This document shows, piece by piece, positions 17,974 through 23,884 of a stretch of DNA of 64,000 nt (position 1 is its first letter; each line of letters starts with the position of its first letter). This stretch comes from Halanaeroarchaeum sp. HSR-CO (GTDB lineage: Archaea; Halobacteriota; Halobacteria; Halobacteriales; Halobacteriaceae): assembly GCF_024972755.1 (NCBI RefSeq), contig NZ_CP087724.1, forward strand, positions 1,860,001 to 1,924,000, given 5' to 3'. The notes below the pieces were generated by a model. The model saw nothing but the letters and a program-made list of their open reading frames with translations, was not told the origin of the DNA and searched no databases. A program made the translations under genes and the position numbers.

Positions 17974-18045
17974 GCGCCGATGGTCTAGCGGCTAGGACCT
18001 GAGCCTTCCAAGCTCATGGCCCGGGTTCAAATCCCGGTCGGCGCA
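17974..18045 (+). tRNA. tRNA-Gly (anticodon TCC)
   Basis: A complete cloverleaf of 72 bases. The 7-bp acceptor stem is GCGCCGA/TCGGCGC with discriminator A at 18045. The anticodon arm TGAGC-CTTCCAA-GCTCA gives anticodon TCC. The T-arm is CCGGG-TTCAAAT-CCCGG. CCA is not encoded. The last 22 bases (T-loop to discriminator) are the seed that is repeated in the array directly downstream. Confidence 0.95.
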
Positions 18046-18807
18046 GTTTTCCGAGCAGCCTGCGAGGAAAACGAGCACAGGGATTTGAATGACGGCAGGC
18101 GCAGCGCGAACGAAGTGAGCGACCGCCTGCAGGTGGTTCAAATCCCGGTCGGCGCAGTTTTCCGAGCAGCCTGCGAGGAAAACGAGCACAGGGATTTGAA
18201 TGACGGCAGGCGCAGCGCGAACGAAGTGAGCGACCGCCTGCAGGTGGTTCAAATCCCGGTCGGCGCAGTTTTCCGAGCAGCCTGCGAGGAAAACGAGCAC
18301 AGGGATTTGAATGACGGCAGGCGCAGCGCGAACGAAGTGAGCGACCGCCTGCAGGTGGTTCAAATCCCGGTCGGCGCAGTTCCAGGCAGCCGCAGGAAAA
18401 CAGCCTGAAATTTGAATGACGGCAGGCGCAGCGCGAACGAAGTGAGCGACCGCCTGCAGGTGGTTCAAATCCCGGTCGGCGCAGTTTTCCGAGCAGCCTG
18501 CGAGGAAAACGAGCACAGGGATTTGAATGACGGCAGGCGCAGCGCGAACGAAGTGAGCGACCGCCTGCAGGTGGTTCAAATCGGTCATCGCTTTGGATTT
18601 TCGAGCGGCCGCAAGGGAAAGCAGCACAGGGATTTGAATGACGGCAGGCGCAGCGCGAACGAAGTGAGCGACCGCCTGCAGGTGGTTCAAATCCCGGTCG
18701 GCGCAGTTTTCCGAGCAGCCTGCGAGGAAAACGAGCACAGGGATTTGAATGACGGCAGGCGCAGCGCGAACGAAGTGAGCGACCGCCTGCAGGTGGTTCA
18801 AATCCCG

Positions 18808-18822
18808 TTGGGCTTCGCCCAA
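18808..18822 (+). repeat. perfect hairpin before the terminal element of the tRNA-Gly array
   Basis: TTGGGC-TTC-GCCCAA: a 6-bp perfect stem with a 3-base loop, inserted where the last unit would continue from TTCAAATCCCG into the tRNA tail. The equivalent place in the tRNA-Arg array holds a different perfect palindrome (23652-23668). Confidence 0.85.
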
Positions 18823-18873
18823 CGACGTCCCCCTCACTTACTTCGCTCCCTCGCGGGACTCCCGGTCGGCGCA
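18823..18873 (+). repeat. terminal element of the tRNA-Gly array
   Basis: Runs from CGACGTCC through GCGGGACTCCC and ends in GGTCGGCGCA, the tRNA-Gly acceptor tail. A related block, CGACGT..CCC to GCGGGACTCCC ending in the tRNA-Arg tail GCCGCG, closes the second array at 23679-23721. GTCCC/GGGAC arms can pair in both. Confidence 0.75.
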
Positions 18874-18933
18874 GTTCTCCGAACCCAAATTACAGACTAG
18901 CCGGTCTGCCGCGTATTACCTGGGGAACGATGC

Positions 18934-23278: not shown

Positions 23279-23351
23279 GGGCGCGTGGCCTAGCGGATAG
23301 GGCGAGAGGTTCCTAACCTCTCGATCGCGGGTTCAAATCCCGCCGCGCCCG
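23279..23351 (+). tRNA. tRNA-Arg (anticodon CCT)
   Basis: A complete 73-base cloverleaf. The acceptor stem is GGGCGCG/CGCGCCC with discriminator G at 23351. The anticodon arm AGAGG-TTCCTAA-CCTCT gives anticodon CCT. The T-arm contains CGGG-TTCAAAT-CCCG. CCA is not encoded. It lies 33 bases after tatA, with a T-rich stretch (23249-23253) at promoter distance. Its 3' end seeds the array downstream. Confidence 0.95.
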
Positions 23352-23721
23352 TTTTGCTGCGAACAAACCGTGAGCAGCAAACGGCGGGGGATTTGAGCCC
23401 TGAAAGACGAACGAAGTGAGTCTTTCTCTGGTTCAAATCCCGCCGCGCCCGTGCAGCGACCGGAGGGAGCGAACCGGCACGCGGGATTTGAATCAGAGAG
23501 TGAAAGAAGCGGAGTGACTGGAACGACCGTGGTTCAAATCCCGCCGCGCCCGTGCAGGGAGGAGCGTAGCGCCGACCGAACCGGCGCATGGGATTTGAAT
23601 CAGGGAGGAGCTTTGCTCCGACCGTGGTTCAAATCCCATCGAGTCCGTTCACGATTTCGTCGAAATCGCTCACTTCCCCGACGTAGTCCCACTCGCTTGC
23701 GTTCGCGGGACTCCCGCCGCG
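23352..23721 (+). repeat. array of diverged tRNA-Arg-tail units with terminal element
   Basis: Three units of about 100 bp (23352-23451, 23452-23552, 23553-23647) end in a copy of the tRNA-Arg T-loop plus acceptor 3' strand; the third copy has drifted to TCCCATCGAGTCCG. Each unit carries an antisense ATTTGA segment upstream of a variable hairpin. Unit 1 opens with GTTTTGCTGC/GCAGCAAAC, like the GTTTT hairpin of the tRNA-Gly array, and has GAAAGAC/GTCTTTC capped by GAACGAAGTGA. After unit 3 come a perfect palindrome (23652-23668) and a block (23679-23721) related to the terminal element of the other array, ending in TCCCGCCGCG of tRNA-Arg. Unit sequences differ greatly while the design is kept. 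Confidence 0.9.
23652..23668 (+). repeat. perfect palindrome before the terminal element of the tRNA-Arg array
   Basis: CGATTTCG-T-CGAAATCG, an 8-bp stem with a single central base. It takes the same place as the TTGGGC hairpin in the tRNA-Gly array. Confidence 0.8.
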
Positions 23722-23884
23722 TTCGTTCACGTATCCAATCGCCACCAGCGAGTGATCCGAATGGTTCGGACCCACACAATATCGCCCCTCGCCTTATACC
23801 ACCGGACCTACTGTCTCGAATTATGTGACGCGTGGCAAGTGGATCGGGATCCACGACCGCGCGGACGAATGCCGTCAGACAGAT

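Follow-up and report, generated by a model that had tools for sequence, protein, structure and literature searches.

Displaced copies of tRNA 3' ends are usual for elements that integrate at tRNA genes. They have been described for Haloquadratum (PMC3119063). Another arrangement is that of the rtT repeat in the E. coli tyrT operon (Rfam RF00391), for which the Rfam consensus has an inverted tail, GGGGAAGGAT, base-paired with the tail. RtT is reported to be freed from tRNA primary transcripts and has been linked to the stringent response (PMC4986893). We have analysed a 64,000-nt stretch of DNA from Halanaeroarchaeum sp. HSR-CO (the window), in which tRNA-Arg(CCT) and tRNA-Gly(TCC) are each followed by an array of units made of hairpins and tail copies. 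A literature search of partial coverage found no description of such arrays in haloarchaea. The original prediction concerned the Arg(CCT) locus and held that three units each end in a copy of the tRNA tail, with arms and inner stems that change in a matched way. This array is real and is part of something far larger than one locus. The arms of units 2 and 3 and the inner stems GAAAGAC/GTCTTTC (unit 1) and GGAGC/GCTCC (unit 3) are present as claimed, at the positions given in Table 1. Two of the three tails are indeed exact copies, but the third agrees with the Arg(CCT) tail at only 16 of 20 bases and is no copy of it. The 443-nt region as a whole has a folding z of -9.2.

Table 1. Features of the two tRNA-anchored arrays in the window
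Feature	Position	Strand	Basis
tRNA-Gly(TCC), anchor of the second, longer array	17974..18045	+	ARAGORN; Rfam
tRNA-Gly(TCC) array, units of about 111 bp	18046..18880	+	
Gly array, exact cognate tails	18137, 18248, 18359, 18464, 18686	+	
Gly array, inverted tails	18077, 18188, 18299, 18515, 18626, 18737	+	
Gly array, terminal partial tail	18860	+	
tRNA-Arg(CCT), array anchor	23279..23351	+	ARAGORN; Rfam RF00005
tRNA-Arg(CCT) tail T54-N73, 20 nt, TTCAAATCCCGCCGCGCCCG	23332-23351	+	coordinates
Unit 1 interior (80 nt): T-rich L1 hairpin, inverted tail, core hairpin	23352..23431	+	
Unit 1 inverted tail GGGGGATTTGA	about 23383-23396	+	
Unit 1 core hairpin, GAAAGAC-ACGAACGAAGTGA-GTCTTTC	within 23352..23431	+	
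Displaced tail copy 1, 20/20 vs tRNA-Arg(CCT)	23432..23451	+	
Unit 2 interior (81 nt): L1, inverted tail, class A core TCAGAGA...GACCGTGG	23452..23532	+	
Unit 2 inverted tail GCGGGATTTGAA, partner arm TTCAAATCCCGC	23481-23492 (inverted tail)	+	
Displaced tail copy 2, 20/20 vs tRNA-Arg(CCT)	23533..23552	+	
Unit 3 interior (75 nt): L1, inverted tail, class A core TCAGGGAGGAGCTTTGCTCCGACCGTGG	23553..23627	+	
Unit 3 inverted tail ATGGGATTTGAA, partner arm TTCAAATCCCAT	23588-23599 (inverted tail)	+	
Unit 3 tail TTCAAATCCCATCGAGTCCG, 16/20 vs Arg(CCT); non-cognate, Arg-isoacceptor-like	23628..23647	+	
Degenerate module of a second kind, outside unit 3	23648..23725	+	
Second-kind module, hairpin GTCCCAC...GCGGGAC	23686-23711	+	
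Second-kind module, end: last 14 nt of a tail only	23712-23725	+	

The units share a common plan, consisting of the tRNA tail (T54 to base 73), a hairpin (L1), an inverted tail, a core hairpin and a tail copy. The start of L1 is T-rich, with 44% T in the first six bases after the tail against 18%. L1 often prolongs the inverted copy into the flank, so that tail, L1 and inverted tail make up one long hairpin. The direct repeat has a sharp left edge (identity 1.00 at position 53, 0.81 at 52 and 0.30 at 51) and on its right side fades gradually beyond the tRNA 3' end. Displaced tails carry no CCA, and in its acceptor part the inverted tail is no more than loosely cognate. The core hairpins fall into several classes that are common to various tRNAs and species; the core of unit 3, for example, has identical copies at other tRNAs, including Arg(CCG), in its own genome and in other genomes. 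Tails are mostly separated by about 75-150 nt, and these intervals hold no genes, the ORFs listed over them being mechanical read-throughs of the repeats. The 111-bp units of the Gly(TCC) array (17974-18880) are nearly identical, i.e. a recent tandem expansion. One Ala(CGC) unit has its innermost hairpin in flipped orientation (CTCGCTACGCTC in place of GAGCGAAGCGAG) within an unchanged stem (L074 versus L068). Modules of the second kind, which end in the last 14 nt of the tail, occur in the outer part of many arrays and have the opposite strand bias (23648-23725; also L294, L264, L011 and L017); related ones lie behind Arg(CCG), Arg(TCT) and Arg(CCT) in relatives.

The palindrome was searched for with the pattern GGATTTGAAN{15,45}TTCAAATCC, with the reversed pattern as control. 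The 10 matches in the Halanaeroarchaeum genome, against 0 for the control, show that the palindrome is not due to chance. All matches whose surroundings were read lie behind a tRNA on the same strand, with one exception at 443070, which lies inside a dead tRNA copy. This is a tandem copy of tRNA-Arg(CCG) that has lost its T-loop (L011 1021-1140, corresponding to C1:443020-443139 of the same genome), apparently by a deletion between the CGCGGG of the T-stem and the CGCGGG of the inverted tail; cassette units would thus be able to destroy a tRNA gene copy. A tRNA-by-tRNA search, in which the T-stem/acceptor strand of the gene itself served as query, found displaced cognate tails behind 24 of 43 tRNA genes in this genome, and behind 23/43 and 23/44 in the relatives G009 and G003. 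Genome G020, which has no match to the pattern, has such tails at 12 of its 30 tRNA genes (non-cognate tails occur in 3% of comparisons). Taken over all tRNA genes examined in haloarchaea, about half have cassettes downstream.

In a phylum-wide sample, the pattern occurs in 40 of 43 genomes of the order (Halobellus, Natronococcus, Natrialba, Halorubrum, Natrinema and Halorarius are among the named carriers) and in 2 of 203 genomes elsewhere. At least one of these two matches, in G195, is a tRNA-like sequence and no cassette unit. For the most part, bacterial matches to the exact palindrome are either tRNA-Ser genes or copies of an alphaproteobacterial repeat that is unrelated. A dispersed palindrome of Alphaproteobacteria and others, CTAGTGTGGT..GGATTTGAAGTTC..GAACTTCAAATCC, fits the pattern and has no relation to tRNAs (L081, L092, L104 and others). 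Two single candidates were seen outside haloarchaea: a metagenome contig labelled 'bacterium' has one isolated unit behind tRNA-Ser(GCT) whose tail is exactly cognate (L093), and a Woesearchaeota genome has a candidate unit following tRNA-Leu(TAA) whose tail has diverged and whose T-loop arm contains a T.G pair (L143). Plasmid homologues amount to a single weak match in Natronorubrum. A scan of IMG/VR gave only tRNA-Ser genes or unrelated palindromes, and no units in viral contigs.

Since displaced tRNA 3' ends are typical of integrating elements, the arrays might be ordinary remnants of viruses or islands integrated at attachment sites in tRNA genes. We regard this as highly improbable. No integrase-bearing element lies between a tRNA and its displaced tail, and the units, at about 75-130 nt, are too short for genes and contain none. 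Their cores are shared, they are found behind many tRNAs of almost every genome, and they are absent from the viral contigs scanned.

Covariation was assessed in an alignment of 32 class A units from many tRNAs and species, with shuffled and slid controls in the place of R-scape and with phylogeny not fully corrected for. Double-sided changes are present in 71 cells, compared to 32.8 +/- 4.4 after shuffling, which ignores relatedness; the covariation score is 0.259, compared to 0.118 +/- 0.012 for shuffled alignments and at most 0.071 for slid controls. The expectation that arms and inner stems keep pairing while their sequence changes is thus borne out well beyond the original locus. The inverted tails also match the particular tRNA behind which they lie. 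For 103 units drawn from four genomes, the summed cognate match is 929, a value reached in 0 of 5000 permutations (mean 834, sd 6.6). The T-loop portion of the inverted tail agrees with the cognate tRNA in 51 of 53 cases for A57, 10 of 10 for G57 and 5 of 5 for TTCAATT, and 11 of the 12 units behind tRNAs with a rare T-loop in the four-genome set carry the matching rare inverted tail. At the Arg(CCT) locus there is true co-change. The orthologous units share L1, and their inverted tails, ATTTGAA here and ATTCGAA in G003 and G009, follow the A57/G57 difference between the tRNAs themselves (TTCAAAT here, TTCGAAT in G003 and G009). Because the inverted tail tracks the cognate tRNA even for rare T-loops, the tRNA, and not one of the arms, looks like the master copy. 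The interpretation first given is supported in part: arms and inner stems do covary, but the proposal that one arm serves as template for the other leaves out the third partner, the tRNA, and is not supported.

The difference between units 2 and 3, from which the prediction of drifting arms had started, has a different probable origin. The L1, arm and core of unit 3 are 94% identical over 54 nt to a Natrinema mahii unit behind tRNA-Arg(TCT), a tRNA whose T-stem reads CCCAT. This match suggests that unit 3 probably came from another Arg-type array, both arms arriving together, in which case the two units provide no evidence of drift in place. Drift of unit 2 into unit 3 is contradicted by the Arg(TCT)-like sequence of unit 3 as well as by its non-cognate tail, and on these sequences the difference would mostly not be of that kind.

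Covariation in itself is what would be expected if the cassettes were chiefly structured RNAs, with read-through tRNA transcripts cut by a tRNase Z-like activity into functional hairpin RNAs of ~100 nt whose fold is under selection. In the cases read the cassettes lie on the tRNA strand, each tail is followed by the T-rich start, and the plan is that of Rfam RtT, in which inverted tail and tail pair in the consensus and which is itself reportedly freed from tRNA transcripts (PMC4986893). The details of the hairpins argue otherwise. Isolated G.U and A.C mismatches number 9:18 in the tail-L1-tail hairpins, 4:14 in the outer arms (a ratio that is weak by itself because the composition of the G-rich inverted tail can favour A.C) and 17:10 in the cores; the pooled ratio of 30:42 differs from the 21:5 found in the tRNA acceptor stems of the same set (Fisher p = 6e-4). 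Among the apical loops, GNA triloops are 6.5x over shuffled sequences and GNRA loops only 1.1x, and in DNA, GNA mini-hairpins are extraordinarily stable (PMC4686876). Cassette number and type, moreover, turn over between sister species. We therefore consider a chiefly RNA role unlikely, and selection on RNA in particular, one of the alternatives first put forward, is not favoured, A.C being as common as G.U, unlike in tRNA stems, and the loops being GNA rather than GNRA.

GNA loops and tandem G.A steps are almost confined to the tRNA-sense strand, and the tandem G.A is invariant at columns 21-22/51-52 of the class A alignment. This restriction to one strand suggests a role for a folded single strand as well. 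The sense strand folds better with DNA and RNA energy parameters alike, which do not discriminate between the two; the balance of the mismatch and loop data leans towards a single DNA strand over RNA.

Comparison of the sister genomes G003 and G009 provides some clues about how cassettes are gained, since cassette number differs at many orthologous tRNAs and type turns over as well. At Glu(CTC), G003 is longer than G009 by exactly 102 bp, made up of an 82-nt cassette and a second 20-nt tail. The flank directly beyond is collinear, and an older decayed unit farther out is common to both. Val(GAC) has a similar filled/empty site with collinear flank, and Gly(TCC) another, but with 26 extra flank bases. 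We infer that the filled sites are insertions, deletions between tails being the alternative; a Glu(CTC) gene of Halanaeroarchaeum carries no cassettes, an outgroup support that is weak because its flank is not homologous. The nearest tail is more like the tRNA than the farthest one in 27 arrays and less so in 3. Such polarity fits gain next to the tRNA; in part, a similar pattern could arise from loss between tails or from conversion that is stronger close to the tRNA. Together, the exact filled/empty site and the best-kept nearest tails argue for accretion at the 3' end of the tRNA combined with homogenisation. As a hybrid, the Glu(CTC) cassette takes its L1 from one Glu(TTC) unit and its core from a second; the cassette at Val(GAC) and a Val(CAC) unit share 93% identity over 74 nt. 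On the strength of these two cases, cassettes seem to be passed between isoacceptors whose tails are nearly equal.

Growth adjoining the anchor, and a tail block T54-N73 with its sharp edge at G53/T54, would also suit site-specific accretion, with the tails as attachment sites of a tyrosine recombinase crossing over in the T-loop and inverted tail, core and tail as an attC-like folded single-strand site. Structure that is kept while sequence varies, the one-strand bias and the variable terminal hairpin point the same way. We nevertheless find this improbable: the cassettes contain no genes and no recombinase or transposase was found tied to them, and the post-gain Glu(CTC) tails are both of the recipient type, an outcome not expected from one crossover with a circle of the Glu(TTC) type. 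Y1 transposases (PF01797), as in IS200/IS605 or RAYT-mobilised REP, showed no correspondence to cassettes, being absent in G226 and G116 (13 and 4 pattern matches) and present in several genomes with 0 pattern matches. A broader possibility, that a folded ssDNA hairpin templated on the tRNA T-arm is the recombination site of a class-wide archaeal system, with an integron-like array at each tRNA and arms rewritten to match, seems quite unlikely.

Mutation alone might also produce such arrays. Fold-back template switching at the replication fork would make tails in plus-minus-plus order, as found, and would time and again correct one arm from the other, without any function; wobble intermediates are in fact few, and long near-perfect inverted copies run into the 3' flank, e.g. 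at Cys. Copying of arms would, however, erase the shared core classes with their invariant tandem G.A, and it accounts neither for the one-strand bias nor for whole cassettes moving between isoacceptors. We judge it distinctly unlikely as the full explanation.

The reading that we favour, and hold to be somewhat more probable than not, is that these are tRNA-anchored cassette arrays of Halobacteriales with an rtT-like plan, in which gain duplicates the tail, the tails evolve in concert and the sense strand is kept foldable. A cassette (T-rich L1, inverted tRNA tail and core hairpin) would be gained at the border between the tRNA 3' tail and the flank, duplicating the 20-nt tail T54-N73; gain at this border would leave the tRNA intact and push older cassettes outward. 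Both arms of the core hairpin would derive from the T-arm/acceptor 3' strand of the tRNA, and they would stay matched through concerted evolution of the tRNA, inverted and displaced tails, in which the tRNA is the master copy. Such evolution could proceed by exchange of cassettes between isoacceptors with the same tail, probably along with gene conversion. Gene conversion is highly efficient in the polyploid haloarchaeon Haloferax volcanii (PMC8223754); in the literature found, it is not documented over arms of 10-20 nt or in inverted orientation. The tRNA-like strand would be kept foldable through its tandem G.A steps, GNA loops and covarying stems, and a single-stranded hairpin may tie up the extra tail, which would then not compete with the real one.

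The arrays can be compared to several known systems. As at the tRNA attachment sites of integrative elements, a block of identity runs from the T-loop to the tRNA 3' end, the tRNA is intact and a displaced 3' end lies downstream; the gene-free units of about 100 nt, the inverted tail and the shared core hairpins are different. With REP/RAYT and other palindromic mobile repeats they share dispersed intergenic hairpins and a one-strand bias, but they are bound to tRNA tails, with the cognate tail duplicated, and Y1 transposases are absent from a genome with 13 pattern matches. Integron attC arrays likewise grow by a fixed anchor, with sites conserved as folded hairpins and not in sequence, and with a one-strand bias, whereas the cassettes described here contain no genes and have arms copied from a tRNA; near the two arrays of the window no integron integrase was noticed. 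The most complete likeness is to rtT (RF00391). The layout is the same: tandem units behind a tRNA gene, each closing with a copy of the tRNA 3' end, an upstream inverted tail paired with the tail, which the haloarchaeal units also have, and G.A-rich hairpins in between. By sequence, the arrays fall outside the rtT family; its model gave no match to either array of the window at E up to 5. No other Rfam family matches the arrays. Unlike rtT, they are archaeal, known from DNA sequence alone, without CCA in their tails, and associated with about half of the tRNA genes that were examined, the arms fitting the tRNA in each case. Cassettes that turn over fast and copy the tRNA end in both orientations behind half of the tRNA genes of these genomes provide many natural replicates of a sequence bound to track an essential gene. 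Concerted evolution, the upkeep of palindromes, the processing of tRNA 3' ends and the question of where rtT came from thereby become directly testable in genetically tractable archaea. The poorly understood rtT repeat of E. coli is also linked to a widespread architecture.
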